DNA of 64,000 nt from Amblyomma americanum (taxonomy: Eukaryota > Arthropoda > Arachnida > Ixodida > Ixodidae): the NCBI RefSeq assembly GCF_052857255.1, contig NC_135505.1, positions 44,718,520 through 44,782,519 of the forward strand, in the 5' to 3' direction. Every line of letters starts with the position of its first letter. Positions within the stretch are counted from its first letter, which is position 1. The notes below the pieces were generated by a model. The model was not told the origin of the DNA. It did not search any database and was given only the letters and a program-made list of their open reading frames with translations. Below, piece after piece: positions 25,840-48,854 of the stretch. The position numbers and the translations under genes were made by a program.

Positions 25840-26504
25840 TTGAAACTCACCAGTGCAGTCACAAGGCTAAAAGAAATATCAAAGCATGCAAAGGAACAGT
25901 ACTTTAACGTGACCTTTCTTACACTTCATAGGAATAATCCTCACAGATTCTGGAAATATTTTCGCGATGAAAAATCAGCCACATCGAACCAGTCCATGGA
26001 GAAAAAACAGAAGAAAGCTAACTTGCACGACGATTTCTTTAAATCTCTTTTTACAAAAAACTAACGGCATTCTCCATAATAGTTTCTGCAAATCTACGCC
26101 ATGTATTGATCCTTTCCACATAAGAGATGATGGTGTTCTGAACTTGCTGCTAAAACTAGACATAAAAAAAGCAAGTTGTTCAGATGACATCACAAATCAG
26201 TTCCTTAAACGATATGCAGAATGGTGCAGTATATATCTTAGTGTCATTTTTCGTAAGTCTTTGTCGACTTTGAAGCGAAGCTACCCGACGATTGGAAAAA
26301 GCAAATGTTCTACCCATTTATAAATCCGGAGGTGGAAACTCACCTCTAATTATCGACCCATTGCACTTACCAGTACGTCGTGCAAACTCACGGAGCACAT
26401 TATAGCAAAACAAAGAACTTTCTGGAGACCGAGAACTTACTATCACCCCATCAACATGGCTTTCGTGGTGGCTTGTTAACTGTCACACAACTAACAGAGG
26501 TTCA
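25840..26504 (+). pseudogene. LINE ORF2: linker and start of reverse transcriptase
   Basis: The 25840-26064 frame (KHAKEQYFNVTF, NNPHRFWKYF) is the usual linker between endonuclease and RT. A second frame, 25967-26323, contains DIKKASCSDDITNQFLKRYA, the first RT motif. A third gives KKANVLPIYKSGG, NYRPIALTSTSCK and SPHQHGFRGG before homology ends. Three frameshifts within 700 bp. Confidence 0.8.
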
Positions 26505-28319: not shown

Positions 28320-28430
28320 TTTCGCTATCCTCTCTCTTTGCTTTTAATTCCACCGGTTGCAGTTCCAGTGCTTGAGGGATTAGATAGCAATCGCTGGGCC
28401 GGCAACATTTTTAGCTTTCTTTTTGTATTC
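28320..28430 (-). repeat. Dispersed repeat, inverted relative to 47430-47560
   Basis: The reverse complement shares ATGTTGCCGGCC and AATTGCTATCTAAT-like blocks with 47430-47560, plus a gapped GATAGCG-type block. It is a member of an unclassified interspersed family. Confidence 0.55.
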
Positions 28431-28944
28431 TCGTCTGTTGTTGCCTCTGAAGCTGTTGGCAAACTGCTACTTCTTGGATGTGTGACTCCCGGGGAGTTAG
28501 CGCGGCTTTTTAGGCGCACAAACCGCGGGAGTCAGAAGAGGGAGCCGTTTCCACGGAACGATCCAGCGACTTTTAAATGTGCCATGCATCTCCATGTTCC
28601 TGGTGCTGGCTCCCTTCCCCTGTCGAGCGGACGGAGAGAATTTCAAGCCGTGGAGAGAAGGGGTTGGGGGCGATGAAAGAACAACTTAAACCGGGAAGAA
28701 AAGTTCGGGGAACCTGAAATAGCTTCAAGCCATGAAGAAAAGAGCCACCGAGAGCCCGGCGATCCTTCCATTGTTATAAACCGGACCCCCCTTCCAACGC
28801 GTACACGAGCACCCGCGCGCTGATGCCGACATCTAGCACGGACGCCTCACCTAGGCTTGCTGGCGTCTCCTGCAGTGCGCATGCGCAGACCGGTCTCGGC
28901 TTACGCTAAGAGCTCGGACGCTGAGCGCGTACGCCCAGGAAGGG
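28431..28944. other. Unassigned spacer
   Basis: GC-rich, with no convincing frame or repeat. Confidence 0.4.
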
Positions 28945-29230
28945 CCATTCCAGTTGGCGCCTCTAGGCCTTTTTTGGGGTGGGATGACTGTCTTTGAAGT
29001 GGCACAGGAGGCCTCCGATAATGATGTCCGGCTTGTGTGTAGTTTGCATCCCTTCCTTTCTGAGAACACTGGCCAAGGTTTCGCAGACACCCTTTACGTA
29101 CTAACTGCATACGCGTTTTTGCCACCAGCGTGTCCTTAGCATAAGCATATCGAGTTGTTTTCGTTGCATCCTTTTCAGTTTTAGATGATACATCGAGTGA
29201 AGAATCTTGGGTATCCATTGCCTAGAAAAG
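28945..29230 (-). pseudogene. Penelope-like element fragment, region before the GIY-YIG domain
   Basis: On the minus strand one frame reads YVKGVCETLASVLRKEG then HKPDIIIGGLLCHFKDSHP. This resembles the conserved stretch between the PLE reverse transcriptase thumb and the GIY-YIG endonuclease (P-Y-V...L...HKP...KD). The following GVVYKI-type GIY-YIG start is missing, and the frame changes near 29125. PLEs encode a telomerase-related RT fused to a GIY-YIG nuclease. Confidence 0.6.
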
Positions 29231-32200
29231 TTTTCTTTTGCTGATGATGAGTTTTAATGGCGCACTGGCAACCTCGCACCAAGCGCAATGGGTTGAAGTG
29301 TTTTCTTCAACACAATGTTAGGTGGAAGACCATTTTCCGAGCACTTCAACTCAAAGAAACCAAGCGCCAGGCTTCGAGAAAACTTCTACCCATTGGAAAT
29401 CAGTGGGTACACGGCGACACTGCGGAACGAATCACACACCGTCCTCGAGCCGCAAGCTCAAAGCGATGTGTCATTGCTGTTGTCGCTGATTTTAAAACAA
29501 ATATGCAAGAATTGGGAATCGTCTTAACCAAAACTTGCTTGAATTCCACCCTACCCTTAGGGCACAATTTTCAGCACTGTTCCTCCCAAAAAGGCTACGG
29601 GAACAAGACGCACAACACGCAGCATCAAACGGATGAAGAACGTGGAGAGGCGGTAACGGAAAGGGCCAAGGATGATTTGAGCAGATGCATAGGTACGGAG
29701 AAATTCTTTTTCAAGAGCTACACGGGCAGCCGGTAGCAGGGTGGTAAGAGGGAGGAAGAAAAGGACAGTGGGGAGGGGTCTCCTGCTGTGCCTTTGCCTG
29801 CCTTTCTTGTTTTTTCTCCTTTTACTTTTCCTCGAATCGTGGAGCGGGTTCCATGGTTGCTTTTTGGATGCGCTATGTTTCTGTTCCCTATGGTGCGAAG
29901 CACGAGCTGCACGACATAGACGGCGCCTCTGCGAAAACGGCCCGGAAAGGTCATGGACGCACTCTTGCCTCCAGGCTGTCACAAAAAAAAACTTACAACC
30001 GCTAATGTGTCAGTCCTGGCAAAGGGTTTTTCCACACGCAGACAAAAATCTCCCAAAAAAGACATCAGAATTTCTGCAGAAGATTCTTTACTGCCTTCCG
30101 CCAAACTAAGGAATTCCACCAGCCTTGTTAAAAGCACAGCGCATGGCACAGGTAGACAGTGCCACCAAAATCAATTTCGGACGAGTTAGCGTGGTTACGC
30201 CAGTTGCAACTAGGAGTGCTAGCACTTCGGTTTTCTGTGCTGTTTCAGTGTTCGGTTCCGTTGCGCATAGATGCAGCTGATGAAGACGACGATATCCAAA
30301 ATACAGCGCTAGAGACTGGTATTTTATGACGCAGAATGTTCGGCTGCGGCGGTGTGGCAGCCGACGGCGGCAAAAAAGCGCTCCGCTGCCGCCGACGCCG
30401 GCGAATCGCCCGGAAAAACGCTCCATGCGGGCCACGCTTAACGCAGTAACCAGCAAAACATATGCGTTCTCGCCGCCTCGGGTTCGAAACTCGCTCGCGG
30501 CCGTAAAACATTTTCGATTATATTATTTCAGGTCAAGTAAATTTCAGACATACAAAGAGGCCACGTCGAAATCCAAAATTGAAGCCTCAGTGCTGCAATG
30601 AAAAATGCGACCCCGTTAGCCCGCTGTTCTACCAGCTTGTGGAGGCAACGGTTGGTACCAATGCGGCCACTCGATGGAACCGCAACACCTAGTGGCCGTG
30701 GCTCTCATCTGCTCACTCACTGAAAAAGGCAGCGCGTTGGAAATGTTTTCCTTAAGCCCCAACTCGATGGGCACATCCTAGGCATACGGCAGAGCGCCTG
30801 CGCGCCCAGCCCCGCGCCGCGACGAGGCAACACAAAGCGGACGTCCGACAAATGAACCGTGACCGCAGCGCTGCGGCCGAACACTGCGAGGCATGCGACC
30901 ACCGAATGGACGTTGACGGCACTAATGTACTGGAAACCGAAGCTAACCCGCACAGGAGGCTTCTACTTGAGTCGTGGCACATCCAACAGACAGGGAAGAA
31001 TGTTAATCGCTCCCTGGGGACACTTCCCGCTTCTTACATCCATGGTTTGCAGCCACTGACCCGGATGTCTTCAACACGAGGGCTTAAAAAGCCGAGGTTC
31101 GAACCATCCGAGGGTTTGTCGACTGCCCGGCGCCGAGATGCGGCGATTTCCCTGTTAATCCCCGTCAGCAGGAAGCGTGCATGGCGAGGCAAGCGGGCGT
31201 AGACCGGCGAAGGCAAAGACCGAGCCAGAGGAAAGGAGCCAAGACGTTTTCCCGAAACCGCCCGCCCCCCTTCGCCCGTCTAAGGAAACCACCGCAGTGA
31301 TAGCGTAGCATAGCGCATGGTCAGCGCGGACGCGGCAAGCAGACGCCGCGTCTAAGCCGCGACGGCGTCGAAGTCAGAGGATGGGGCATACCAACGGGTC
31401 CCGAGAAGCGGGCCTGCTTAACGAAACGCTGAAGCGTGTTCAGAGGCAGCAACGACAGGCTGGCGCCTCTTTCGAGATTTTGCGGGGACGCCTGTCAACA
31501 GTCGTCCCGAAGACGAGTAGTCTACTACTCGCAGCGGTAGCGATTGGTTGAATATCGGTAATTGGCGTAAAGCTGGGAGCCGCATGGGAATGTTTTGATG
31601 TATTTTCATATGTTTCTCTTTTCACTTTTTAAGGGAGAGAGTTTGAGTAATACTGTGGAAGGATGGAGCGTGGCACGTAAACCTGTTGGCCCAAGCATTT
31701 CGAGGGTTCATTCCCGGAATTACATTTTGTTATAGCAATTTAGATGTACTGTGTATTTCAGGGAGAGGGTTTGAACTTGCCGAAATTGGAGGGCGTGCCA
31801 TGAAGTTTGTAAACCAATGATGGGTTAGTTTGCTGTTGATTGGGCGATGCAAGAGGTGGGCCGGGTTTCTAGGTCTTTAAAACCAGGGTCCGGAGCCATG
31901 GGAGATCGTTCTGAGCTAGATTTAGATCCCTTGCATCTTCGGCGGTGCCAATGAAGGAAGATTTTCCCTTAGCCAGTTCCATGTAACCGCCATCGCCCCC
32001 CATACACCTTGCCCTCGTCTCCCGCATCCTTTCAGCTCCTGAGGACCTGGCTGTCTCGCTACTGTCGGTCATCAGCTGCATCTGGTTAGCCAGTTCCCTG
32101 CGTCCATTGACTTTCTTCTGCTGAAGTTTTGATGTACCACCTGGTCGAGAGAGTCATTTCCAAAACGGTAAGTAACAACCTTCCCAAGCCATTTCATTAA

Positions 32201-32439
32201 GCACCTCGGTCCATGTTACGTTTTGTGTTTGTTTGCATGTCCTGATTACAAAATTCAGGGCGGTCTGTAGAGCTTGTTGGTAACTTTTTTTTAATTCCTA
32301 CAGCATGACAAGCGTAGAGCTTACATGCGTGTGCAATCACTGTGGATTTGGTTTGTGCGGAAGGATTGTCACGGAAATTCATTGTGGGGTCATCGTTACG
32401 ACATAGTTCCTGACCACTCTTCCTCCTATAGTTTATGGC
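29231..32439. other. Long region without recognisable genes
   Basis: Several frames of 60-160 codons exist on both strands but show low-complexity or Arg/Ser-rich composition and no motif. 30330-30500 and 30770-31400 are GC/CpG-rich. 31640-32110 has a TTTAAAA box near 31878 and could be a solo LTR, but I cannot define its ends. Confidence 0.4.
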
Positions 32440-32576
32440 TATAGTTATTTCATTTCTCTAATCTGCCTGATATCCCTTTATTTGCGCTGCCCCAGCTCAG
32501 GTGCTCGCAGCAGGGAAAATCTTTCCCTTCTTTTCTTTTTATTATTTGGATAAAATAACCGCTACTACTACTACAT
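32440..32576 (+). repeat. LINE 3' end fragment with (TAC)n tail
   Basis: T/C-rich 3' UTR-like sequence ends ATTATTTGGATAAAATAACCG followed by four or five TAC units (32560-32576). It resembles the end of the I-group LINE near 38970, which also finishes in (CTA)n. Confidence 0.5.
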
Positions 32577-32630
32577 AGAATTGCCACCCATCACAGTTAG
32601 CATTCAACATTGCACATGCGACACGTGACA

Positions 32631-32870
32631 CGCCGCCGCGGTGGCTGAGTGGTTATGGCGCTCGGCTGCTGGCCCGAAAGATGCGGGTTCGATCCCGGCC
32701 TCGGCGGTCGAATTTCGATGCAGGTGAAATTCGAGAGCCCCGTGTATTATGCGTTGTCGATGCGTGTTAAAGAACCCCAGGTGGTCGAAATTTCCCAAGC
32801 CCTTCACTACGGCGTCTCTCATAGCCTGAGTCGGTTTGGGGCGTTAAACCCTCATAAAACAACGACCATA
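32631..32870 (+). mobile_element. Ruka-type tRNA-derived SINE
   Basis: Starts CCGCCGCGGTGGCTGAGTGG (A box) with GGTTCGATCCC as B box about 45 bp later, like a tRNA-derived polymerase III promoter. The body passes through AAAGAACCCCAGGTGGTCGAAATTTC and CCCTTCACTACGGCG to GGCGTTAAACCCTCATAAAA. This family is the strongest taxonomic clue: a SINE with this layout is known from Rhipicephalus ticks. Target duplications are not clear. Confidence 0.9.
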
Positions 32871-33640
32871 AAAAATGTACACAACGACCGGTCGTTCATG
32901 TTTATAGCATGCAAACAGCTTAAGGCACTTGCTTACATGGTGCTAATTGCGGTTTACGTAGTGCTCTCATATTTTATTAGGTAAAATTACAACATTTGGC
33001 CAGAAAAAAGCAGTACAGGGAGACGTCGGAGCAAATGTATTATTATTCCAAAGGATATGCAAGGCACTGCAGATAATTTAGCGAAGCTTAAAGAGATAAC
33101 ATGCAAAGGTCCGAATAATGCAGAAATACAGCAGGCGCCTTCTGCTGGACATAATATTTCTGAAGTACGTAATTAACAAGTAGCGCTATCTCTCTTGTTA
33201 TTCATAACTTTAGCTCAACATTTTCAACATAAATGTAGACCAAGTGAGGACTTTATTTACTAATGTAAGCATGCCAGTGTTACCGGATACGTTGTCATTC
33301 ACAAGTAGACATGATGCAAAGCATGCAAGGCGAGCGAATTAAAGAGGAATCGCTCGTGGGCGATGTAAAACGGTATAGCATACCTACTGACAGAGGAGTG
33401 AAGCGGCAAGATTTGACACATAAAAAAAAAAAAACCTGCAGCTGGTTCGCTTTCTCATCTCAAGGAATAAAAATAAGCGCACAACAATATGTTTGGATAG
33501 AACAGATGACAATCTAAACCTTGCAAGTGCAGAATATTTGCAGCGCGCGCATTTGTTTCTTCAAGCTTTCTTTAGCATTAGCTGAGCGACTTTGAATACC
33601 AGGTGTTACCTGGAAGACGTTTCAAAAATATGCGTTTTGG
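32871..33640. other. Unassigned spacer
   Basis: AT-rich, with no recognised gene or repeat. Confidence 0.45.
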
Positions 33641-34508
33641 CTTTGAAATATGGCTTTTACGGCACAGTATTACCAGTGTGAATTGTTTCCGGTGAATCGT
33701 TTTAACTATTCAGCTGGTTAACTAGATTTTAATAATTAACTTTTAACAATTGCAGTTAGGCGCTTAGTCGTAATTTTAGATTTGTAGCCGGTAGTTAGTA
33801 ATAGCCATATAAGTTTTTAGAATTTCCAAAACATGGTTACCTTTGGCCATATGGATCGACAAAATTTGGCTGTTTCGACTAGTTACGCGCACTGGAAAGG
33901 TTTCTTTGCTTGCATGCTTTCGAAAGCGCATGTATTTTGGCGCTAACTGGTTCTTGAAAATTGACTTTTGAGGAGAGGAAATGACACAGTAACTGTCCCG
34001 CCTATCTCGGCGGGCACCCGAATTGCACCGTAAGGGAAGAGATGAAGGAGGGAGTTAAAGAAGAAAGGAACAAATAGGTGCCGTTGTGGAGGGCTCCAGA
34101 ATAATTTCGACCAACTAGGGATCTTCAAAGTGCAGTGATATTGCACAGCGCATGGGTGCCTTTTGCGTTTCGCCTCCATAGAAGCGCAGCCGCTGCGGTT
34201 GAGTGCCAACCCGGGTACTCCGGCTCAGCAGATGAGCACCTTAACCACTGAGCCATCGCATGATGTAGCCAAATTTTGTCGAGCCACTGCGATGAGGGTA
34301 ATCGCGTTTTCGAAATTCTAAAAACTGATACGGATATTAGTAACCTACCTCTAACTGCAACTAGGCGCCTAACTAATAGTTAAAAGTTAATATCAGAATT
34401 AGTAAACCAGCTTCCTCCCGGTTTACTGCCTGTTAACTACTGGGTAACTACCGGTTAGCTACAGTTTGCGGGCATTGGTATACTATGCCGCAAAATCCAT
34501 ATTTTAAA
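33641..34508. repeat. Long inverted repeat with ~230-bp arms around a SINE
   Basis: The left arm 33641-33871 and right arm 34267-34508 are diverged reverse complements (shared blocks include AAATATGG, TTAACTTTTAA, GTTAGGCGC, TTTTTAGAATTTC and GACAAAATTTGGCT). The spacer is mostly a minus-strand SINE. It looks like a foldback element or MITE with long terminal repeats that later received the SINE. I estimate 70-80% arm identity by eye. Confidence 0.78.
33951..34260 (-). mobile_element. Full-length tRNA-derived SINE inside the inverted repeat
   Basis: On the minus strand it begins GATGGCTCAGTGGTTAAGG (A box, right end). It continues through a body with GATCCCTAGTTGGTCGAAAT and CCCTCCACAACGGCACC, and ends with CATTTCCTCTCCTCAAAAG. 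Same family as 47034-47257. Confidence 0.85.
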
Positions 34509-35329
34509 AGCGAAAGCTTTTCCTGTTTTCGTCGGAGCGATTTCGCCATCACCTCACGTTTGATCTTGAACGTCCTTGATGCGCCGCTGCCATAGCAACC
34601 CAGCAAGTGACTTCGCCGCGCCGCCAAGCCTAGTCTTCGCCGTCTCTGCGCAGGGGCTCCACAGCCATGCAGCGGCTGCTGCCTGACCATGTTATCTAGC
34701 CGAGTATCAGCTGGATAAGAAAATATTAGCTGTTGCTCAACTACTGCTGAACCTTGTTAGAGAGCGAGAGCTGTGATGTATCGTGCAAGCAGACGCGGCT
34801 TAGCGTCTGTAGCGTTGAGTGCGTTCCGCACACTGGATGAGCAGTGCGCCCAACCTGCCACCCTGGCAGGTGGCATTTGAATTAATGGCTGATCGCGAGA
34901 GGTTGGTTAGGCTGCGGCCTATTGCTGCAGTGCCGCGTGTCTGCCACAACGTTGTCAGCGCTAATGCATGCAGCCCACATCTTTCTCTCACTACCATCAC
35001 GTACCTCAAAGCGCTATTGAGGCGCCCACTTACACAGGTGGCCTGTTATATGCGCCCTTCCTTTCCACAAAATCACCAAGAAAGTTGTCAACGCCAACAC
35101 CAATGAACACAATGAACGCCGACGACTTTCGCTTTGTTAGCTGAGCTAATCCGAGAAAGCTTAATTTTGATGATGACTTAGTCTTCTCTGTAACACCTGG
35201 TATGTGTTACTGCTGTTATCTGTATAAGGGAGCCCAGAAAAATTCAAACCTTTTTCTTTTGCATTTGTTTATTGATGTTTGAAAAAATGTTGTTAGCATG
35301 CATATAAATAAGCTGCGAGGAATATAAAC
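34509..35329. other. Unassigned spacer with a dispersed repeat
   Basis: Short frames only. Positions 35030-35160 are the second copy of the repeat described at 2461-2600. Confidence 0.45.
35030..35160 (+). repeat. Dispersed repeat, copy B
   Basis: Matches 2461-2600 in the same orientation in several blocks, ending in GCTGAGCTAA. Unclassified. Confidence 0.55.
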
Positions 35330-35333
35330 TTAA

Positions 35334-37898
35334 GGGCACAGGGTAAGCCCTATACTTCCCATGCATTTTAGGCCATGTTGAGGTACATGTTTCTCACTAA
35401 CTAATAACAGTAGCCTAATAATACATATATCATTGTTTGCCAAATTTTGTGCTCTTTTTACTGAATCAGAATATTTGAAATGTGTTGAAAATTCGATTTT
35501 TAATAAAATTTTTTCCGGTAGTACACAAATCTAGCCTTTCTTTGCGCATTTCAAAATTCATAACAGAATAACTGCTCAGTGAAATTGCTTAATTCTAGTT
35601 CAGTAGTTGGCAACACTTATGTAGATGATTGCAAAAAAAAATCAGCCGTCTGTCTTGAAAGGCATTGGAAATAATGATACCTTTGTAAGAAAAAACACTG
35701 TTTTGAGATAATAGAGCGTAAAGAGAAAAAAGATGTGAAAAACCATTTTTTATTCGGTCAGAAACGCCTCCATAGTAAATGGTTTAACAGCCCCCTGCTT
35801 CGTGGTCACTGTCGCCGTCACTTTTTCGCTTTTCGGCTTGTCGTTTTGACTGTCGGGCCTCTTTTGTAAGCTTTCGTGTTGCTCGGTCCGCAAAGTACAT
35901 GCGCTTATGGTCAGCTTCCCTCAGCCACTTGATGGTGTTGCTCCCTGGGTTCAATCCACACGCCTTCAAAACGTTGGCCCGTGCGATGCTACCATCATTA
36001 AATGAAAGAACAGCATCCAGTGTTGCCATCCGTAGGGTCCGAAGCCTAACAAACACATTCTTTGGCGCGCGTTCCCAAACAACATGGTTGAGAGTTCGCC
36101 CATGCAGGCACTTCTCTAGGAGCTCAGCCTTCGATAGCTCCCTATAAATGGGTTTGATAGCCTCCAAGACAGATGCAGGCAAACTCTCCTTGTGGAAAAA
36201 TGGCTTGCCCTCTGACTGACTTCTGTTGAAGGCACACCACGTATCAGGTTCCTTTGGGCAAAGTCCATAGCATGGGTCATCGTCTGTGGCCGATAAGTGG
36301 AAGAAGGTTGCCCAAACGGCCTTTCGCATTTCATCCAGGTTTCCTACATTTCTTCTGATGGCCAAACCATAGTACGTCTGGAGCTTGTCTATTACTGCAT
36401 CAGTCAGTCGGCCTCGGCCCGAGAGGCTCTTTCCATCAGAGAGTTTTCCTGCTTTGTTTCCTTTTTTTAGCCTTCGTAACCTTGTGCCCATCCTTTTTTG
36501 CACGTGCCCTATGCACTCAACCTTGGATATTTCAACGGAATCACCATATGGCATTTGTGCCTTCACAGCCATAAAAGCCTTGCTGTCACCATCCCCAAGG
36601 TATTTAACGTATCGAACGCCGTGAAGCTCCTCACTCCTGCCGAAAATTTTCAGTGCTCCTGCGACTTCCATTCCACCGCTGGTGCCTTGGTAGTTGCTTT
36701 GGCACACCTCTCTATGAAGGGGGTCACTGTTTGTACCCTTGATGCTGCACTTTGGACAACGTTTAGACAAAACCTCCACATCCAGCACTTTCCCAGAGTC
36801 CACACTGGTCGCAGAGACTATGCCGTTATTGGAAGTATGGCCTCGCTTCTGCCAGCTTCCATCAAGAGCAACTGCAAAGTCTTTATCCCCCTCATTCAGC
36901 TGCACAGCTTCGTCAGCTGCCCTTTTCATCGACTCCTGAGCAGCAGCTTCGATGTGACCTAGAAGCTCTTGATTGTATTTCGCAAACTTTGTCGGCGGCT
37001 TAGGAAGGTTTAGCATAGCACAGAGTATATTTCCTGCAGCCATTCCCTTACCAATGGACCTCAAGGCATACACTAACCTGAGGTTGGCTTCATAGAGGCC
37101 AGAAGTAGTTTTCTTCGACGTCTCAAATCGTTGTGCGGCACTACACACTTCACAGTTCAAACTGTAAACGCTTGCAACACCTACCCGTTTTGTCACAATT
37201 TCGATGAGCTCAACACTTCCACCGCACTCTCTGCACACACAAATCTGTGTAATTGCGGCACAAATGCCGTTCATGTCCATTAAGGCATATTGGCTGCTGC
37301 TCTGTAGCACATTCTCTTCCTGGAAGCACAGAGAAAATCTTGAAAGCTTCGATGTCGAGGAGCTGGCGCGTTCGGCGTTCGGGATCTCATTCGGTCGTGG
37401 ACATCCTTTTGATTTTTCACGATGAGCGTAGCGGTTGCGTGAAATTCACGCCTGACGAAGGCCTTCTTTGCCCTGGGCATCTCAACTTATCAGCAGCAAC
37501 CAACACCGGAACAATTTACAATACTGATCGAAAGGGATAGCACTCGGACGCAGCTGCATGAAGGTTGCAGAAACGTGGAAAAAACGTGCAAAGCATCTCA
37601 GGATTGTCTTGCCTCAAAAAGAGGAGCTGTACAATAATTGCCAGACAATTTTTTATATGTAGCTGATTTTAGACAAGTTTTGAAATCAGGTGGTGGACCT
37701 TTTGGTTGAAAAAAATGACGTTAATCCTGAAAGGGGGCGTGGCCGCTCACTACTTGGTTTCGGAAAAAGCGTTTTTCAGCCGTAAATATGGCTTTCTGAG
37801 GAAAGTGCGATCATGGAACATGTGTAGAAAGAATTGAACTTCTAAAATTCCAAAAGAAAAAAAAACAATTTTTTTCTAATTTTACCTTACCCTGTGCC
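35334..37898 (-). mobile_element. Mutator-like DNA transposon with 14-bp terminal repeats and TTAA flanks
   Basis: Exact terminal inverted repeats GGGCACAGGGTAAG (35334-35347) and its complement (37885-37898) bound a 2.57-kb unit. TTAA lies immediately outside both ends (35330-35333, 37899-37902). The only long frame inside, on the minus strand, is a Mutator-like transposase. TTAA duplications are typical of piggyBac, while Mutator elements usually duplicate 8-11 bp, so the combination is unexpected. If TTAA is counted as part of the repeat, the perfect inverted repeat is 18 bp. Confidence 0.85.
35784..37480 (-). CDS. Mutator-like transposase, nearly intact (one frameshift near the N-terminus)
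   Basis: From an internal in-frame GTG at 37310 the frame runs 508 codons to 35784 without a stop; the first in-frame ATG is 37280. Features in that numbering: a possible zinc ribbon (C24, C26, C29, C53, C56), VALDGSWQKRG with candidate catalytic D150, CPKC at 185-188 with H199 and C203, YLGDGDSKAF with D240/D242, and a basic Lys/Arg tail. This resembles the arthropod/cnidarian Mutator-like transposase family. A likely native start is the ATG at 37480 (MPRAKKAFVRREFH). The frame must shift by one base near 37437 to enter NRYAHREKSKGCPRPNE and then the main frame. That shift is the only lesion I see. The enzyme would cut at the 14-bp terminal repeats. The third acidic residue is not assigned. 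Confidence 0.85.
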
Positions 37899-37902
37899 CT
37901 TA

Positions 37903-38049
37903 AGAGGTGTCTTGATCACGTTTTCTTTAGGTTTTTAGGTTTTCATTGACTAAAATGTGTTAGAGAAATTGGTAAAATTGCACAGTAGGAGGCCCCAAAG
38001 CGCGGCAGTCAGGGAGACTTCCTATAACAAAATGTCTCCGCAATTTGTA
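37903..38049. other. Short spacer
   Basis: AT-rich, between the Mutator-like element and the I-group LINE fragment. Nothing recognised. Confidence 0.4.
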
Positions 38050-38992
38050 TACCGCCAGTTTTCACTCGGACTCACAAAAGGGACGACGAAAGGCGCGAGT
38101 GGACTACCTGCGCCGCACACACCGACAGGCACGAAATGCTGTATACGTCGACGCAGCCATGTATCCCAATTCCACGAACGCGGTGGCGGTAGTTTTGGAC
38201 ACCAACTTCAAGGATCTCGCCAGCGCCTCTCTACGCAACTGCTCTCCCACAGTAGCAGAAACGGCCGCAATCGGTCTCGCCGTCCAGCACGGCGATACCA
38301 CGCGAAACGGACTAAAAATTGTTACAGACTCCCAGTCGGCGTGTCGGCTCTTCCTCTCTGGCAGACTTCCGCACTCCATCGCTCCCATTCTGACTACCCC
38401 ACATGTTAAAAATTCCACATGCAAGCACCAAATCACTTGGGCTCCTGGGCACGAGGGGCTCGAGGGAAACGAGGCCGCGGACAGTCTAGCTCGAGATACA
38501 CCAACCGAGCGACTAACCTCCCCGACGTCACCCCTCTTCCCTCTATGTACGGCGAACGCCTCCTCCTTCTCCGAACGCAAAGGCAAGTCTATCCCCCACC
38601 ACACTCGAAGCTAACGGCGGCAGAGGCGAGGGGCTGGCGACAACTACAGACGAACACCTTCCCAAACCTACACAAATACCATATCATGTTTCCCGATTGA
38701 GACGACGGAATCTGCCTCTGGTGTGGCGGAATTCCAACAACATACCATGTAACATGGGGCTGCTCCGGTAACAAGCCCCCCGAACTAGACAAACATCAAT
38801 CCGAGGAACAGTGGGAGTCTGCCCTGCTCAGCTCCGATTTGGCGACCCAGCGTAGCCTGATATCCCAAGCAAGAGCAACTGCGGTGGACATTGGGGTCCT
38901 GAAATAAGGACTCCACCCAAAATCTGTTTTTTCCCGCCTCTTTCTCCTACCTTTCTATGAATAAATGTTTTCTACTACTACTACTACTACCG
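38050..38992 (+). mobile_element. I-group LINE 3' end: RNase H domain, zinc knuckle and (CTA)n tail
   Basis: The 38045-38614 frame carries an RNase HI domain: VYVDAAMYPN (Asp), VAETAAIGL (Glu), IVTDSQSACR (Asp) and WAPGHEGLEGNEAADSLAR (His, final Asp). After a frameshift near 38590, KLTAAEARGWRQLQT leads to CLWCGGIPTTYHVTWGC, a C-x2-C-x8-H-x4-C finger typical of this LINE C-terminus, reached through a TGA at 38698. It ends VDIGVLK-stop (near 38905), then AATAAATGTTTT and (CTA)n. An RNase H domain distinguishes I/R1-like LINEs from the CR1/Jockey types elsewhere in this window. The element is 5' truncated. Confidence 0.88.
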
Positions 38993-39210
38993 TCAGTTTT
39001 GAACACTCGACTTCCAAACTTAGTGATGATGCCAGAGACAAAGCATTTTTCATAAATATATTTTTTTGCGCTAAGCGGGCAGCCTGAGTCCAGTAAGGTA
39101 GATAACGCGGTCAAGATTTTGAGCAAACCCTTCAATCCCCAGTAACTTAGGTCCTCTAAGGCACTCATTTCGTCACAAATGGATATGTTAACATTTGCAT
39201 AAATTACCAT
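38993..39210 (-). other. Unrecognised coding-like fragment
   Basis: The minus strand from 39210 gives a protein-like stretch (CDEMSALEDLSYWGLKGLL, then CFVSGIITKFGSRVFKT) that stops resembling coding sequence at the (CTA)n tail. Mixed hydrophobic and charged composition suggests a real coding remnant. I do not recognise the family. Confidence 0.35.
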
Positions 39211-39353
39211 TCAAGTTCATTGGCTCTTCATTTCGTAGTGACATATCTTTCCTTTGTCTTTTCTTTGGTTCACTTGTGCTTCGTTTTGTCGTTCCTCGGC
39301 GTGTGTGAGTTTTCTTGCGCTAAATGTTTCACCATGCCATCTTTTTTTTACAG

Positions 39354-39845
39354 AGCAAGGGATACCTTATAAAATGGAAAGGATATTCCAAGTGCCATTG
39401 CTCCGTTGAACCAAGAAAAAATCTGAACGGCGCCTGTCTCCGGGAATTTAAGCACCCAAGCAAGCCATCGCCACAACGACTGGAAGCTGCTGCTGAGGAA
39501 TTAATTTACGCTGTGCAAAAGAAACTTTCCAACAGCCGTCGATCCAGCGGGCTTGTCAAGGTGAACATAGACCTGGACATCTTTAGATGGGTTTTCAGTA
39601 GGAAAGGAAGGCCGCTCGAAAGGGGTTGGATTGTTTGCAATGAGTCAGACTTTTCAAAGCTGAATCTTCCCTTTGGGTGGCATACTCGAGAAACGAAACT
39701 TGGCAGTGTAGTGGCAATTGAGTTCCCAGTGCGTGTGAAGGCTGCTGTGACACGACAGAAAGCTTGCAAGCTCTTTCCAAACGGCTATCCTGTGGAAAGT
39801 CTGCAAATGTTCCTTGTGTCGAAGGTTGTTGCATGCAGAACCTAA
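39354..39845 (+). CDS. Chromodomain-containing exon
   Basis: An exon appears to start after a pyrimidine-rich TTTTTTTACAG acceptor (39353). It reads SKGYLIKWKGYS, the second strand of a chromodomain with its KW and W/Y aromatic positions, followed by VEPRKNLNGACLREFKHP. In most chromodomains this segment is W-E-P; here the Trp is Val. A Lys/Arg-rich, partly hydrophobic region of about 110 residues follows with no domain I know, ending at 39845. Chromodomains bind methylated histone tails and also occur at the ends of some transposon proteins. The upstream exon with the first half of the domain was not found. It might belong to the same gene as the frame at 41608-43653, with a LINE in the intron, but this is not shown. 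Confidence 0.55.
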   Translation, partial: SKGYLIKWKGYSKCHCSVEPRKNLNGACLREFKHPSKPSPQRLEAAAEELIYAVQKKLSNSRRSSGLVKVNIDLDIFRWVFSRKGRPLERGWIVCNESDFSKLNLPFGWHTRETKLGSVVAIEFPVRVKAAVTRQKACKLFPNGYPVESLQMFLVSKVVACRT

Positions 39846-39975
39846 CCCACAGAAATAGTGAGCCTTCCGCCTTTCACATATATGTTGCCAGCAAACGTTT
39901 TTGGAACTTTGTTTTTTTTTTCGATATAGTATTGATTCTTGCATTTCAATTTGTGTTGTTTAGAATTTCTTAAAA

Positions 39976-40218
39976 ATGAGTTCTGGAGCTTTGCGCTTAG
40001 AGATTTCTGAATGTGCGATTTCATTTACAATGACAAATAAGACAGTTCTGGAAATCTTTAGCAACAAAACGGTTTTGGAGAAATCTTATTTTGAGACAAT
40101 AACATCTTTTATTCCACTTGGCATGTCCATCCCAGAGAGTTTAAAGGTTGCAGTAGAGACAAGATTTAGAAGCCTCTGCTCCTCGGTAGATACTCAGTAC
40201 AGAAAAATTAATGGCTGA
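39976..40218 (+). other. Short coding-like frame of unknown nature
   Basis: Eighty codons rich in Ser, Thr, Glu and Lys (ISFTMTNKTVLEIFSNKTVL), ending just before the LINE insertion. It may be an exon of the surrounding locus or chance. Confidence 0.25.
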
Positions 40219-40249
40219 GCAAAAGAGGGGTTCCTTAAAAAAGAGCGCC

Positions 40250-41605
40250 ATGTAAAAATTCCCTTCGATAAGAATCAGAATCAGAATCAGAACGTTTATT
40301 CACGCAGAAATTTATACACAAAATGCTGTGTAGTCATCTGGATCCTTAGCCGCTATGGCTAGTGATGTATCCATTACAAACATTGTCAGAGTTAAACAAT
40401 CACTATATGGAGCATTGCTATGAGCAACAAAACGTGTTTAGCTTGGTGCATCAGATTGCTTGTTAAGGTAGTGGCGTTTTAGTTTAGAAACAAAGTTGGA
40501 CGTGTATTTCATGTAACACGGCACGGTATTCCATATTTTAGCCCCGATAAAAGAAATTGAGCGCCGCCCGTATATGTTGTGAGCTATGGGTAAATTAAAA
40601 TTATTGTGCTGTGCCTGCCTAGTGTCACGTTTGGGAGAGATGAATATGGAAGAAGGATGTGGAGAGTTCGTGCTATTTATCTGGCGGACTAAAATGGCCG
40701 TTTTGTACTCACGTACATTGGTGAAGGGCATTATGTTTAATTCATCAAAAAGGGGTTTGGATGGTATTGCTCTCGGTGCATATGATATTATTCTGACAGC
40801 CCTTTTCTGGAGAGTGCTAACTTTTGCTAAGTAAGATGCGAAGGTGAAACCCCAGGATTCAATGCAGTATATTAAATGGTTATGGAAAACGCTGAAATAT
40901 ATCATTCGTAGTGTGTTCTTGTCAAAATGTTTTTGTGCTTTAATTAGTGCATAGCACCCAGAGGTTAACTTTTTGCATAAGTTTTCTATATGAGGTGCCC
41001 AGTGTAGATTCTCATCAAGAGTTACTCCTAAATATTTGTAGCTTTGAACCCGTTCAATTGGTAATCCATCGAGATGCAGACTACATTCTACGGGGGTAGA
41101 TTTACGACGGGAGGTGAAAGCAATGAACTTTGTTTTTTTAACATTTAGCGCTAGTTTGTTAGTGCTAAACCAATTTGCTGCTTTTTGGAGGCTATCATTT
41201 GCAAGTGATTCAGCCTTTTCTGCCGACTGATGAGGTATTAGTAGAGCTGTGTCATCTGCGTACATGACTGCTTGTCCATGCTCAATGAAACGAGGAAAAT
41301 CATTTATAAAGAGGGAAAAAAGCAGGGGGCCAAGTACTGACCCTTGCGGAACTCCTGTCCTAACTTCCCCCATTGAAGATCTTTGATCTAGGATTTGCAC
41401 GAATTGCATGCGGTTAGTTAGGTAGCTACGGAAAAAATTGATGGCTGGTCCTCGAAATCCATAACTTTCAAGTTTCTGTAACAAAATGTCATGTTTAACA
41501 GTGTCGAATGCTTTTCTAATGTCAAGGAATATGCCTATAATAATCTTGTTTGAATTTAAAGCCCGGTTAATTATTTCTGTTGCTGAGTGTACTGCTGTGC
41601 CTGTA
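40250..41605 (-). mobile_element. CR1/Jockey-type LINE, 5' truncated, intact reverse transcriptase end and (TGATTC)n tail
   Basis: On the minus strand the frame is open from about 41605 to 40438: FLDIRKAFDTVKHDILLQKL, TGVPQGSVLGP, MYADDTALL (intact YADD), SYKYLGVTLDENLHW and the C-terminal region, with no stop or frameshift. The 3' end reads AATAAACGTTCTGATTC with three or four 6-bp units (near 40270). The native start is lost by truncation. The absence of lesions points to a recent insertion. It lies between the chromodomain exon and the RAG1-like frame. Confidence 0.9.
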
Positions 41606-41607
41606 GA

Positions 41608-43653
41608 AGGAAAGAAGGAAAGTTCTGTTCAAAATTCAAATAACAGTATCAAGGACATCATTATTCAAGCTTTACAAGAAGAAGTGAAGCGAATGGAGGG
41701 TGTATCAGAACGGTCTCTTTCTGAACTGCGTAAGTCCATTCAGGACTTTGAGGCAAAATGCCTTCTGCTGCAAAAAGAAAACAAAAGCCTGTCATCACAG
41801 GCAAAAAACTGCCGCTTGCTCAACAACTGCGGAAAAAGGGTCGGGGAAGGTTCGAAAAGCACCGATAGAAGAAAGCTGCATTCTGTAGGCAGCGTGATAG
41901 TTCAAGGGCTAGAAGAAATTTTGGAAAGCTATGGCTTGGACTTATGCCAGTTGGTTGTAGAAGACCTTCGAGGGCTACTGCACAAAACTACTTTTTCTGA
42001 CATTGACGGAATCTCCGTGGAGCGAGGAATCAAAAAAGAATACCGCAGTAATGGTAAAACTATCAGGGTCTTTCTTCCCCCAAGAAGAAAAGCGTCCGTG
42101 CAATCACCGCGCTCTTAGACAACCACTTTGTAAGCAATGTTTTTTGGGAAAAAATGTCTTCAGCTGTCCCTAATTTACCCTCGCTCCGTGTCATCAATTC
42201 ATACAGGCAAAAACTAGACGAAAGCACTGCTGTGTTTAAAACCTTAGGAGAAGCAGCTGGCGCTCAGGTGTCTTTTGTGCACGAACTTGAAACTGCCGTT
42301 GCGGAGTACGCAGTGAATAGAGGTATGACAGGAGAACAGCTCAGGTCGCAGCCAATTTTGGTCAAAATAAAAGGAGATGGCTGTGTAGTCAGCACACGAA
42401 CAAGCTGGACAACTCTATCTTTTCTCCTGATTGACAGCAGCCGGAGGCTGCAGAGCCATACCTTACATCGCCTGCTCGCAGTCGTCGAAGTCTCTGAAAA
42501 CTATTTTCAGATTAGAGAAAGTTTGAAGGATTTGATAGACGAAGTTAACAGTGTTGTGAAAAGGGGCAATGTCAGCTTGGAAGGAGAGGAAGTTCTCGTC
42601 ATAGTCTGTCTGGGCTCAGATCTAAAATTCTTGCTCATGGTTCAAGGATTGCAGTCGGCGTCTTCTAGGCACCCATGTCCTTTCTGTCGTATTAATTTAA
42701 AGGAACAAAGCAGAGCTGGGGCAAACAAAGAGGAGTGTAATAAGCCGCCTCTTCTGCGCACTCTAAAAAACATGAGGGAGGACGGCATTGTTGAAGAATT
42801 CGGAATGAAAGTCGTTCCCCTATTCAACATTGAACCTGCATTTGTGGTTCCAGACATTTTACACATGCGCATTAGAGTCGTTAATCGCCTGGTTGATGGA
42901 TTGATTGTCGAAGCAAAGGACAAAGACAACCGCGATAAAGTTATCAACTTAGACACCAAGAGCACTCACGTGGAAGCAATTGTGCAGGCAATTAATAGCT
43001 GTGGTGTAAAATTTGAACTGTGGCAGGACGAAAGAAAAGGAAAAAATTTCACCTGTATTCAAGGAGACTCCTGCGAGCGCCTGCTTGAAATGCTGCCAGA
43101 GAGGCTCACTGGAAAACTCAGCCTGGAAACAGAAAAAAAAATCATCTCACTTTGGAAAATGCTTAGTCGCATTTTTGATCATTTTGAACATAACACGACC
43201 GGCGAAAGCATCGAGCAAGAAATAGCCAAATTCCATAAAACGTACTTAGAACTTGGAGAACGAGGGCATAAGGGTTACGGGGCTGAAAGAATGACGCCAT
43301 ATATGCATATTCTTGTGTGTCATGCCTCAAATAAGCATAAAGAATTCAAGTGTTTGGGGTGGTTTTCGAGCGAAGGCATTGAGAAAAAGAATGATATTCT
43401 GAAGCATTTGCATCATGCAAGATCCAATAAATGGAATGCGGCCGCCGATGCGCTGAAGCTGGCAAAACGCCTTGAGAATAGCGCGCACGTAACAACAAGT
43501 CGAGCGTACAAAAAACACGATCGTTCATACTGGGTTGAGGGTATGATTGAAGAGAGTCGCACAAATAGGGCTCGGAGCGCTCCTGAAATGGAGCGCGAGG
43601 ATACACCTCCCGCTTGCATCGAGGATATGGACGCGGTTGAACTGCGGACTTAA
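41608..43653 (+). CDS. RAG1/Transib-core-like transposase protein, one frameshift
   Basis: The 5' part (to about 42080) is a Lys/Glu-rich coiled coil (EEVKRMEGVSERSLSELRKS) with Cys residues, then ISVERGIKKEYRSNGKTIRV. A one-base shift in a C run near 42078 connects it to a 499-codon frame (ATG 42154; the same phase is open upstream from about 42082). In 42154 numbering: KIKGDG (D75), CLGSDLKFLL (D156), CPFC (C175, C178), PDILHM (D234, H237), YMHILVCH (H385, H390) and SSEGIEKKND (E407, E410). D156 to C175 is 19 residues and H390 to E410 is 20. In RAG1 the corresponding pairs, D708-C727 and H942-E962, have the same spacings, and C727-x2-C730 and H937-x4-H942 match too. RAG1/Transib enzymes cleave DNA by hairpin formation. 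Similar proteins are, as I recall, widespread as hypotheticals in cnidarians and ticks. The RAG1 link is inferred from pattern. An exon start after CTGTAG (41606) is possible; the boundary with the LINE is uncertain. Confidence 0.7.
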
Positions 43654-44582
43654 TTGAAAGCTGCTGGCATTTCAACGAAAGTAAAATCAGTTCCCAAACT
43701 GCGTGAAATGCTTCGCAAAGAAAGGGAAAAACGATGTTTTCAGCAGTCGACTTGACTTCTATTAGCAAAAATTGCCTGCAATTAGCAATTGCCTGCTCGC
43801 GATGTTCCACAAGTCTGTATGCCTCAGTTTTTATCATTTCCTACTTTTTTAATGAAATATTCATCAAAAAACTTTGTAGTGCAGTATGTGCACACTTGCA
43901 GCTTGAACGGTTTACTATGTCTCTTCACTCAATGCTAAAACTCGCATTCTCGCTGGTACGACTAAACGAGAGTGAAATGCTTTACACGCTGTATCTGTAT
44001 TCATGTATGATATGTTTATATTTTTTGTATCGCGCCACGCTGTGTTGTTTTGTGTTTTTTGGGTTTCATCAAGATTAGGCCAATTGTGTTTTATAATTAC
44101 TGCAGTGCACGCTTGAAATGCCTTCGCAGTGCACCTCTGGCTGCCTATGTTCCCTGCGAAACGGCGCGGTTCATGTGGCTGACCTCATTGTAGCGCGAAT
44201 GTTGCACCTCTCCTTTCCTCACTACCAGCCTAGTGATGTGTGGCGGTTGCAAGTGGTACACGTCTATGTAGAAAGTGTAAAGTTTTGCCATACTTAATAT
44301 TTACTACCGACACTTTCTCAAGCTGGTTCTGTGCATAAGTGCATTGTGTATTTCTAGCAAACTGTCGAAATGTATCGTTTAGACTTTTTCTGCGCCATGA
44401 TGTGATGCGATAATAAATGTATTCTGTCATGTCAAGTAAACTGCCGCTTTGATTTTTTGTACGAGTTTTTGTAGCGATTATTACGGCAGCATTTCGAGCC
44501 TTCAACGTGGCGGCGCCGTGGTGGTGGCGGCACCGCCACCCTGTGGCTGCGTTGACACCCTGTAGATGCGCCGCCACCCTGT
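43654..44582. other. Region downstream of the RAG1-like frame
   Basis: A Lys-rich peptide continues a short way past the stop (43655-43730) in the same phase and may be read-through remnant. Otherwise AT-rich. 44508-44580 has CGCCACCCTGT repeated around E-box sequences. Confidence 0.4.
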
Positions 44583-44641
44583 CACGTGGTTGGTCACGTG
44601 GTGCGGCTGATCACGTTGTTGGTCACGTGTTTGGTCACGTG
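44583..44641. promoter_or_regulatory. Cluster of four CACGTG E-boxes
   Basis: CACGTG occurs at 44583, 44595, 44624 and 44636, each preceded by GT; the last lies in the palindrome GGTCACGTGACC. A related CACGTT lies between. Such motifs bind bHLH-zip factors (USF, MITF/TFE, MYC-MAX). No adjacent gene start is recognised, so regulation is speculative, and a simple-repeat origin is possible. Confidence 0.4.
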
Positions 44642-45384
44642 ACCAAGTTCCACTCGGGCAGCTGTAGCTATCGCGTCACTCCAGGTTTAACCAAAGCTAA
44701 ACCACCGTTATTTTTTTTTTTGCAACTTGCACAAAAGGACAGGAACAAAGAATTGAGCAAAACACTCAACAGGTTAGGAAATTCGGTAGGCTGAAGAAGT
44801 TAAACTGAATGTACGCATTGCTACATTTAATTTTCGCTATTTTCAACTTCACTCCTGAACCTAATATGGACTCCTTTTGGAGATTCTCATTTGCGATGGC
44901 ATGTTCTATCTGCGGCCGCCTCAGCATTCACAGTTGACGGCGAGGGGACCGAATTCCCGGGGGTATTCAGCGTCGGTCGTAATCGAGTCACGTCACCATG
45001 CTGGTGAGTAACGTCATGTAGATCCGGGCGTCAGGGTACGTTAGTAAATTTCAGCTTTAACATAAGTGATGTGTCCCCACTTGGATCCCAATTTAGATCA
45101 GTTACGAAAAACAACAGAGGGAACGAAGAGGACCGGGTGGGACGCATTGCTGCCGTTATATGATCTCTAATCGTCTTTGAAACATTTGTCAGGCAGTGCT
45201 TTCAAATACGTGAAAAGGTATGTTTGGCGCATCACAGCTCCAGCTGCCGCTGAGCGAGTTCTTACAACGTGAAAAAGCAATGCTTGCTTTCCGATCCCTC
45301 ATAGTTATGTCACACACAAAAATAATTGTGGAATCTCCTTCATCACGCTTTTCCATAAGCCGTTTAATATTTCCATGCGTTTTG
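44642..45384. other. Unassigned spacer
   Basis: No gene, structured repeat or known element recognised. Confidence 0.4.
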
Positions 45385-45530
45385 GTTTACGGTTTATCGT
45401 CCCAAAGCGACTCAGGCTATGAGGAACGCCGTAGTGAAAGACTCCGGAAATTTCGACCAGCTGAGGTTCTTTAACATGCACTGAAATCGAACAGTACACG
45501 GACCACTAGCATTTCGCCTACATCAAAATC
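45385..45530 (-). mobile_element. Partial Ruka-type SINE lacking the tRNA head
   Basis: The plus strand reads GTCCCAAAGCGACTCAGGC through GACTCCGGAAATTTCGACCAG and ATTTCGCCTAC, the complement of the SINE body seen at 32631 and 62588. The tRNA-like promoter is missing. Confidence 0.8.
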
Positions 45531-46608
45531 CAAGCGCTCCATAACGATCGCAAAGTACAACATTGATGACTTGACTACACAACTCCTCACTGCGGCAGCA
45601 CTATGAGCAGTACATTTGAACAAAGAAAAGAAATCGCGCTGAAATTAAGAAATTTGGGGAACACTTAACTCCGCCTTGTTGGTATGATGCTATAGCATTA
45701 ACAGGTCTTTTCTGCGGCTTGGTGTCCTCTGCATATTTTGTATTCGAAATTTCAGGCTATTTCGCATGGTCTCATGACGTAACATTTAGCCCGGTGAGCA
45801 ATGAGCACTCGACCGTATAACCAGCCAACAGCCACCCGCTAGTGCACCTCCCATCTCGGACATGTGACGGCGCTTGGTCATGTCACCAGGTATCGTAATC
45901 TAGTATCTTAACCCCGCTCAGCCACAGCGTTTAATGCCGGGATGCATGAGGCGTTTTTACGGCGTGAGGCCGGCGATTTTCACCCGATGGTGAGCGCCGC
46001 CACCAATGTGGACCTACCAGATAATTTTCGCACGTCGTCCGACGACGGTTGATGAGGCGGCGGCTGACGCGAGCGAATAGGTGCGCAGAAAGCCCGCTCT
46101 TTTCCGATATGACTGCTTGCGCACGTCGCCGTCGACGAGGCCGCCATGGCCGACGAGCACGTGGCGACTTGGGGGGCGGGCATGGAAACGTGACTGTCTT
46201 GAAGATAAACGATTCATCAAGCATAGCATGTCTTTTTTTTATGGGGACATGAATTACTGTCGTATGAAAATGGGCGCGCGCGTTTCCTCAAGGCCGGTGG
46301 AAGAAAACCACGCGCGCAAAAAGCCTGTGTTGTCTCGAGCGTGTGGTTCTCGATATCTGGACATATTCATGCGGAGTAATGTGATGAAAAAAAAAATTCG
46401 AGGGATCTGGTTGCATGTTACATTCTCGAATTTCCTGTTTACATTATCCCTACGTCATAAGACAGGCCGGTGATCAGCCATGGAACTTAAAAGCTTCACA
46501 TCCTGAGCCGGCCCTCGCCCTCCTAACCAAGCCAAACTTGCGACAAGCCAAGTGGGAGCTCCGCGTTTTTGCGCCACTGCATGCAATGGACTCTACCGTG
46601 GCGCGCGC
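45531..46608. other. Unassigned region, GC-rich at 45950-46190
   Basis: Overlapping Arg-rich frames on both strands at 45930-46250 reflect GC-rich composition rather than a gene. Nothing recognised. Confidence 0.4.
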
Positions 46609-46647
46609 GCACACACCCACACACAGCCCAACACACACACACACACA
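46609..46647. repeat. Interrupted (CA)n microsatellite
   Basis: About 39 bp of CA dinucleotides with CCC and GCC interruptions. Confidence 0.9.
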
Positions 46648-47033
46648 TGCAGAAAAAGGCAGTGAACTAGGGCGCCAGGAAGTCACGTGCATGCAGGTAC
46701 AATTCCTATACAAGCGCATCCCGAAAATGGTTACACGTTTAAATGGTATTATTCAATAATTTGTACGATGAGCAACCTGTCACCATACTTGTGTATAAAT
46801 GCAGGAAACACATGTTGTGTGCAAGCAGCCTAGGTAAAATGATCAGCGCCGTTCGTAAGTAGAAGGCAGCATATTTTCATTTTTGCGAAAGCATAGCAGC
46901 TCACAAGGAGGAAAATCAGGCGTTGTCCTCCCCAGAGGTTTGGAAAAACCACGTGACCAAATCAGAAAAAGAAAAATTAAGTTTCGTAAATAAAATACTT
47001 TCCGAAGTGGGTTCCGCACCCACGAAGGGAACC
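46648..47033. other. Unassigned spacer
   Basis: No feature recognised. Confidence 0.4.
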
Positions 47034-47257
47034 CGCCGCATTGGCTCAGTGGATAGGGCGCGATGTCAGTGCACGCTAAACATCCCCAGGTGTTCTAAAT
47101 TATTCCAGAACCCTCCACTACGGCACCTTTTTCTCCTTTTTTTTTCACTCCCTCCATTTTCCCTTTACGGCGCGGTTCAGGTGTCAGCCGATATGAAAGA
47201 CAGATACTGCGACATTTCCTTTCTCAAAAAACCAATTTTCAATTTTTACTTTCAAGG
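47034..47257 (+). mobile_element. tRNA-derived SINE with an internal deletion
   Basis: Starts CCGCCGCATTGGCTCAGTGG (A box), then jumps directly to GATGTCAGTGCACGCT, losing the B-box region. It continues through CCCCAGGTGTTCTAAATTA and CCCTCCACTACGGCACC to TTTCCTTTCTCAAAAAACC. Same family as 33951-34260. Loss of the B box should silence polymerase III transcription. Confidence 0.82.
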
Positions 47258-47271
47258 TTAGTTTCTAAAAT

Positions 47272-47345
47272 TAGTTTTGAGGAAAGGAAATGGCGCAGTA
47301 ACTGTCTCACATATATCGGTGGACGCTCGAACCACGCCGTGAGAG
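47272..47345 (-). mobile_element. SINE 3' fragment, inverted next to the previous copy
   Basis: TTTTGAGGAAAGGAAATGGCG is the complement of the 3' end of the adjacent SINE family, so two copies lie tail-to-tail within about 15 bp. Confidence 0.65.
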
Positions 47346-47429
47346 GACTGACCTCTGGCCCACTTGAAGGTCAAAACCGTAAGCACCGCGAAATTGTTAC
47401 GAGGTAGCATAGTGAAGCTTTCGCATCAA

Positions 47430-47560
47430 AAGTGAAGGAAAATAATGTTGCCGGCCGTGGCAATTGCTATCTAATATCTTAACCACCCGAGCTCCAGCCG
47501 GCGGAGGAGAAAGGGAAATGATATCGAGGAGAAATATAAAGGGGAGCGATAGCAAGGAAG
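47430..47560 (+). repeat. Dispersed repeat, inverted relative to 28320-28430
   Basis: Contains TGTTGCCGGCC and CAATTGCTATCTAAT, matching the complement of 28320-28430. Unclassified. Confidence 0.5.
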
Positions 47561-48854
47561 CACAGGATCGAGTATTCGGGTGTGGCTCAATCCCCGGTCC
47601 GCTTTCGAAGGGGGATGCCATTCACATACCTGGCTTAATATCTCATATGGGCCCTTGAGGCTTGGGTGTTACGCATATTTTGAAAGTATGGCGGAGTGCT
47701 TGGCGTAACGCACTCTGGCACAGGTCAGCCCGGTATTGCACTGCCTCCGGGATTGGCCCGTGGCCTACGGGCTATTGCGCGCGCTTTTCTTCTGTCTCTT
47801 TATTCCCATCTTTCACCTCCTACTATCAGCACGCAGGCAGCTGGGCGTGGCTCCGCATTGAGCCAGTAAGCAAGCCCGTGCTTTTCCTTTCGTCCTTCTG
47901 TCGACAACTCAACTCAACTCGAAAAAAGGAAGCACAGGGGCTCGAGCTGGGTTTGGGTATCGTCGCCTTCATCAACTTCCATTCGGGCGGCGTGAACTGA
48001 TCAGCTTGGCTGGCCATTGCATTAGAGCAGCACGCCATCGCCGCAGCCGAACACCACGCTGCAAGCTTTCTCCTTCACAGCTCGTCAGTAGACTTAATTG
48101 TTGTCCGTAATTTTTTTCCCCGTTGCGAAAAAACTTGACAATTATGGTGAGTCAGGTTATAACTGCAACCTCTTTCGAAAAAATAAAAACACTGACGTGT
48201 AAACAAATGCGCAACACAAGGTTCTTACTGATGCTTATACGGCCGCTAGTTCTCTTCTGTCACCAGTCATCAGATTTTCTGTACAGCAAAACACCATTTA
48301 CCATGAAGACACAGACCGTCCCACGGGGAGAAGTTGGGTGCAGCGCTAAAAAAATTCTATTCCACGCATTATGCTCTGGACTCACTGAGTGATAGCTGGG
48401 CCTTGGCAGAATTCTGGAACATTTAGCCATATCTTGTGTGATGTGCATATATACCGCCAGTAGTTTTTGACAAATGGCCCCTCAAAGTAGGACAAAGACG
48501 GGGCGTGTACGCCGCTTCAACCCCAACCCGACTTCTTTCTTTTCTTGCACCGCAGTAAAGGAACAGACTAGGGGAGCCGCACAGTCAGCCCGTTTCGAAC
48601 ACGCTGGGTGGAAAAAAAAACAAAACAGAAACGCGAAGGGTGCCCCCCTCCCGAGGAGCTTGGCTTGAGGGGAGGACACACAAAGCGGACAATGGGCGAA
48701 GCTTACTAGCGTCTCTCTCTCAAACCGGGAGGAAGAATGCAAGAGAAGGAGGAGGAGCTCAACTTCATGCGGCCCGTGGTGGCGGCGTTGTGAACTAGGA
48801 GCGGATGAACCAGAATCCTGGCCATGGCGCATGATCTAGCCATTAGTCTTGACG
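47561..48854. other. Unassigned region
   Basis: Frames of up to 116 codons on both strands without recognisable motifs. No clear repeat structure. Confidence 0.4.

Follow-up and report, generated by a model that had tools for sequence, protein, structure and literature searches.

A RAG1-like transposase gene and a chromodomain gene in a large mobile unit of the tick Amblyomma americanum

Closest Described Systems

Transib elements are known from arthropods, and elements of the CACTA/EnSpm, Mirage, and Chapaev (CMC) group produce short target duplications of 2–4 bp. In RAG1, the catalytic residues are D600, D708, and E962, and the zinc ligands are C727/C730 and H937/H942 (unchecked numbering of an earlier note on this DNA). 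According to an excerpt of PMC7204232, CAC ends and a 5-bp target duplication are the hallmarks of Transib and RAG-like (RAGL) elements, and among the protostomes Arthropoda belong to the groups without any RAG-like element found. Here we analyze a 64-kb stretch of contig NC_135505.1 of Amblyomma americanum (the window), in which a gene assigned to the RAG1/Transib-type transposases and a chromodomain gene lie in one 22-kb mobile unit. Among the literature matches listed, titles and the beginnings of abstracts mention no tick RAG1-like or Transib element, and none paired with a chromodomain.

The amphioxus protein BbRAG1L (PDB 6b40) shares the core fold with the tick transposase and has its second Asp, C-x2-C, H-x4-H, and Glu in register with it, whereas the tick unit differs from the RAGL transposons in having a chromodomain gene, non-CAC ends, no detected RAG2-like domain, and no 5-bp duplication. 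HzTransib (PDB 6pqx, 6pqr, and 6pqn) is similar in its fold; the tick unit differs from Transib in its two genes, its length of approximately 18–22 kb, its CAT ends, and the lack of a duplication. The CMC transposases also contain C(2)C and H(3-4)H motifs between the second D and the E (excerpt of PMC12730594), while the ends and target duplications of these elements are different. Finally, the Spy transposons, which can be likened to the tick unit by description only, are DNA transposons described without target site duplications, but they fall into the PHIS group with PIF/Harbinger (excerpt of PMC4482050).

We consider it likely that the transposase gene belongs to a large hard-tick DNA transposon, in which the RAG1-like enzyme would act on the element's ends with the chromodomain protein as its partner.

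Family and Fold of the Transposase

The tick protein and the family of hypothetical proteins around it are supported as RAG1/Transib-type DDE transposases at both the fold and the family level. The named homologs come from Hyalomma, Rhipicephalus, and Haemaphysalis and share 50–66% identity with the window frame; a ninth named match, the chimeric gene model P0008, was excluded from the alignments. The tick-family profile matched amphioxus RAG1L in PDB (E = 2.1e-5), HzTransib being absent from the results of the sequence-profile searches, and the relationship is also supported by a profile–profile comparison with a control and by VIA-align. When the AlphaFold model was searched with Foldseek, all 37 matches at E <= 0.001 were RAG1, BbRAG1L, or HzTransib, and for the model of a Hyalomma relative all 26 matches at this threshold were RAG1 or HzTransib. 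The predicted structure has an RNase H core into which a long helical segment is inserted, and its nearest structures are RAG1 and Transib. A RAG1/Transib relationship had been proposed in the earlier note, which suggested structure prediction as a check, and it is supported by each of these searches.

No informative Pfam match was obtained for the transposase, and RAG1's own Pfam family likewise failed to match. No Pfam match to the N-terminal non-core zinc regions of RAG1 was found among the eight members of alignment A1, several of which are incomplete. The PDB matches listed by Foldseek (for both models) or VIA-align contain no CMC structure, which excludes nothing.

The residues singled out in the earlier note, D75, D156, C175-x2-C178, H385-x4-H390, and E410, are all present at the positions it gave in a 499-codon stretch, which opens at an internal ATG of the frame 42058–43653. 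The rechecked codons are:

42376..42378, plus strand: first catalytic Asp codon
42619..42621, plus strand: second catalytic Asp codon
42676..42687, plus strand: C-x2-C zinc ligands
43306..43323, plus strand: H-x4-H zinc ligands
43381..43383, plus strand: catalytic Glu codon

The spacings derived from these positions are 19, 3, 5, and 20 residues. The D, D, and E together with C-x2-C and H-x4-H are in register with RAG1/RAG1L, except that the first Asp is outside the aligned stretch, and its assignment relies on position and a predicted strand. The catalytic and zinc residues are retained across the tick family (alignments A1 and A2) and are therefore more than a chance pattern. For instance, the first GDG occurs in all nine A2 rows, out of 12, that extend over it. 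The exceptions are P0010, which lacks C-x2-C, and P0012, where the second His is replaced by Arg.

The region given in the earlier note starts at 41608, but the start of the gene is the ATG at 39976. In the window copy the gene is arranged as follows:

39976..40272, plus strand: N-terminal part of the transposase, with an in-frame TGA
40273..41614, minus strand: non-LTR (long terminal repeat) retroelement fragment within the gene (RVT_1, 2e-27)
41615..43653, plus strand: remaining transposase gene in two frames, with an early TAA at 43651
43654..43755, plus strand: remainder of the C-terminus beyond the early stop, weakly SAP-like

The non-LTR element interrupts the gene at approximately 40273–41614, the reading frame changes between approximately 42058 and 42082, and the premature TAA occupies 43651–43653, whereas the stop of intact copies is at 43753–43755. 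The SAP resemblance of the C-terminus falls below the Pfam cut-off. The window copy of the element carries a Mutator-like insertion, the non-LTR insertion, the frameshift, the in-frame TGA, and the early TAA, and is dead.

Ends of the Mobile Unit and Target Sites

The boundaries of the unit were placed where homology between copies begins and stops:

26503..48826, plus strand: whole mobile unit, window copy (22,324 bp, or about 18.4 kb once its own two insertions are subtracted)
26503..26525, plus strand: left terminal inverted repeat CATCCCCAGGATTCTGGACCATG, where homology with copy c018 starts; found in nine of 11 left-end fetches
48804..48826, minus strand: right terminal inverted repeat, reading CATGGCCAGGATTCTGGTTCATC on this strand, where homology stops; present in each of the 12 right-end fetches

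The inverted repeats have the near-palindromic sequence CATSSCCAGGATTCTGG; those at the two ends, CATCCCCAGGATTCTGG and CATGGCCAGGATTCTGG, agree at 15 of 17 positions. The core pattern occurs at just these two places in the window. The right end was recovered in all 12 fetches of the main set and also in the lower-identity copies o475 and o130. It was not reached in c002 and c006, where homology breaks at 47960 and 47980, or in o541, where it stops at 46559, and the c005 fetch is too short to contain it. Position 30824 was considered as the left end and rejected, as it marks an internal difference between copies. The left part, 26503–30824, differs among the window copy, c002, c018, and c009 by several indels of up to kilobases, the shared parts being approximately 98% identical.

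The terminal repeats begin with CATSSCC, where the earlier note had expected CACWRTG together with 5-bp target duplications. A search for CACWRTG around the gene gave weak pairs only, and a scan inside the unit for CAC ends with exact 5-bp duplications found no pair with at least 12 of 20 positions matching (such a pair arose in one of five shuffles). None of the nine copies with both ends has an exact target duplication of 2–10 bp, that is, neither the 5-bp duplication of Transib and RAGL elements nor the 2–4-bp duplication of CMC elements. When offsets of up to 3 were allowed, the sole duplication-like match was one of 4 bp at shifted positions in c004.

In c004, the insertion splits the frame of a long interspersed element (LINE), with no bases duplicated or lost: the joined flanks align with a LINE protein of the window at 44% identity over 192 residues, gapless at the junction. 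An open frame also continues over the junction in c402, whose target is mariner-like, and in the window copy, which alone is weak evidence; the spacing across both junctions presumably fits such proteins. In c402, the Pfam HTH_48 match lies only left of the junction and ends before it. Apart from a weak gapped match of c008 to its own right-hand fetch, the other spanning matches of joined flanks are to the copy's own locus or to another copy of the element, and the window copy has none. The left flank of c534 sits within the chromodomain exon of another copy.

The termini of c017 (L054 and L055) have T for C on the left and A for G on the right, complementary changes relative to the other eight two-ended copies. 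These changes could hint at joint processing of both ends.

Chromodomain Gene

The chromodomain exon that the earlier note listed as a possible nearby partner is a real neighbor, and its gene lies in the same mobile unit, upstream of the transposase. This gene consists of two exons:

32132..32167, plus strand: predicted exon 1 (MYHLVERVISKT), followed by the donor GTAAGT; the same exon join is seen in P0020 of Rhipicephalus microplus
39354..39845, plus strand: exon 2 with the stop codon, preceded by the acceptor TTTTACAG; Pfam Chromo match of the joined protein, 5.6e-7

Exon 1 encodes 12 residues and is also present in six other copies. Eleven homologs of the chromodomain protein were found, six of them named R. 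microplus proteins and five unnamed. In the R. microplus gene model P0021, a chromodomain protein runs into a transposase C-terminus, with 71% identity to P0009 over 94 residues. Since P0021 joins both proteins, the two genes are neighbors in a second genus.

Copies in the Genome

The genome search proposed in the earlier note yielded 83 matches in the 2.56-Gb assembly, drawn from the 81 that were scored out of 987 candidates. A stop-free frame of at least 815 codons occurs in 12 of the 83 match rows. Among 30 fetched loci, eight have an open frame of at least 816 codons, three of which share the exact start and end with the reference copy. The copies compared at the DNA level are mostly approximately 98% identical. 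Lower-identity copies were considered as old relatives, and this was rejected for the three fetched (o475, o130, and o541), which carry frameshifts and are also approximately 98% identical in DNA.

In 29 copies of the transposase gene, the mean pairwise difference is 2.9% and the maximum is 18.8%. There are 455 singleton and 51 shared changes, with a synonymous share of 27% in either class against 28% expected under an assumed transition weight. The pattern fits a single young burst and neutral decay.

Some defects recur. L006 has the early TAA of the window copy with a different frameshift at the same site, and one deletion is common to L014 and L025. L001/L006 and L014/L025 are pairs of copies with the same transposase defect, and defective copies may have multiplied, either helped in trans or through segmental duplication.

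Proposed Mechanism and Alternative Explanations

We suggest that the transposase most likely binds the near-palindromic CATSSCCAGGATTCTGG at both ends of the unit, and that it would cut there and join the element to new DNA. Two strand transfers directly opposite each other would leave no target duplication. The chromodomain protein encoded upstream probably guides the complex toward marked chromatin, by analogy with the PHD finger of RAG2.

Several observations weigh against this interpretation. Both the ends and the target geometry are unlike those of Transib and RAG. An independent protein alignment backs one of the nine junctions, that of c004. The search for a left end failed in c003 and c143, as it did in the left flanks fetched for c002 (19 kb), c005, and c009. 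The changes in the gene, shared ones included, look neutral, so that selection on it during the burst is unsupported, and broken-gene copies have defects in common.

The same misfit of the ends and the missing duplication would be explained if the RAG1-like and chromodomain genes were captured or nested passengers of a 22-kb unit mobilized in trans by another enzyme. Other fossil fragments in the unit, such as those with RNase H and GIY-YIG domains, and the neutral-looking changes within the burst also agree with this. However, inside the unit the genes are not flanked by a pair of CAC ends with a 5-bp duplication, the part of the unit common to the copies yielded no domain of another transposase or recombinase, and the two genes lie together in a second genus as well; we regard such a history as rather unlikely. 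It is still less probable that the protein is a CMC rather than a RAG1/Transib transposase. Both groups carry C(2)C and H(3-4)H (excerpt of PMC12730594), and with no CMC structure among the PDB matches listed the fold search may not separate them, but the tick family matches RAG1L at the sequence level, the ends are CAT, a 2–4-bp duplication is not seen, and there is no Pfam match, a point limited by the same failure of RAG1's own Pfam family. Finally, an ordinary Transib that lost its CAC ends and 5-bp duplications through decay or recombination would agree with the fold of HzTransib, yet it is very improbable: most copies show about 98% identity, but all nine two-ended ones lack a duplication, the same ends recur at independent sites, and the LINE target of c004 reads through exactly.

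The transposon reading with the RAG1-like enzyme acting on these ends is thus the one we prefer. We see roughly even chances that the unit represents a new superfamily-level branch of the RAG1/Transib type in ticks: a giant element with two genes, a chromodomain chromatin reader in the place of RAG2, near-palindromic CAT ends, and duplication-free strand transfer. If so, neither the partner that reads chromatin nor the 5-bp geometry at the target would be fixed in the RAG1 enzyme family, and the tick pair would offer a second, independent pairing for testing how the partnership of RAG1 and RAG2 arose.

Other Features of the Unit and the Window

Two further features of the unit are:

35335..37898, minus strand: Mutator-like element (PF20700, 4e-69), present in the window copy alone among the copies compared
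37954..38990, plus strand: fossil non-LTR fragment with RNase H, common to c002, c003, and c006

Among the 21 frames of at least 120 amino acids in the unit, no Pfam match was found to a RAG2-like (kelch or PHD) domain, which short exons could let escape, or, the Mutator-like insertion aside, to any transposase or recombinase; Pfam also missed the RAG1-like protein, which limits such absences in the unit. A fragment that weakly matches GIY-YIG (0.0015, below the Pfam cut-off) occurs at window positions 30824–31202 and at L037:1213–1746 and is longer in c002. This fragment probably derives from a Penelope-like element.

Outside the unit, positions 7242–8784, and perhaps also 10326–10925, encode a THAP domain (1.4e-14) and, after it, a stretch weakly matching a TNP-like RNase H; a third frame at this locus has no Pfam match. 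By its domain content, the region 7242–8784 appears to be the remains of a P-element-like transposon. P0008 of R. microplus combines THAP and TNP-like RNase H domains with a stretch of the RAG1-like transposase family and is either a chimera built from two transposons or an artefact of the annotation. A Myb/SANT-like DNA-binding domain (7.6e-14) is encoded on the minus strand at 4683–5153, and positions 21399–21703 are a uniform ATAC tetranucleotide array of 76 copies with 99% matches.
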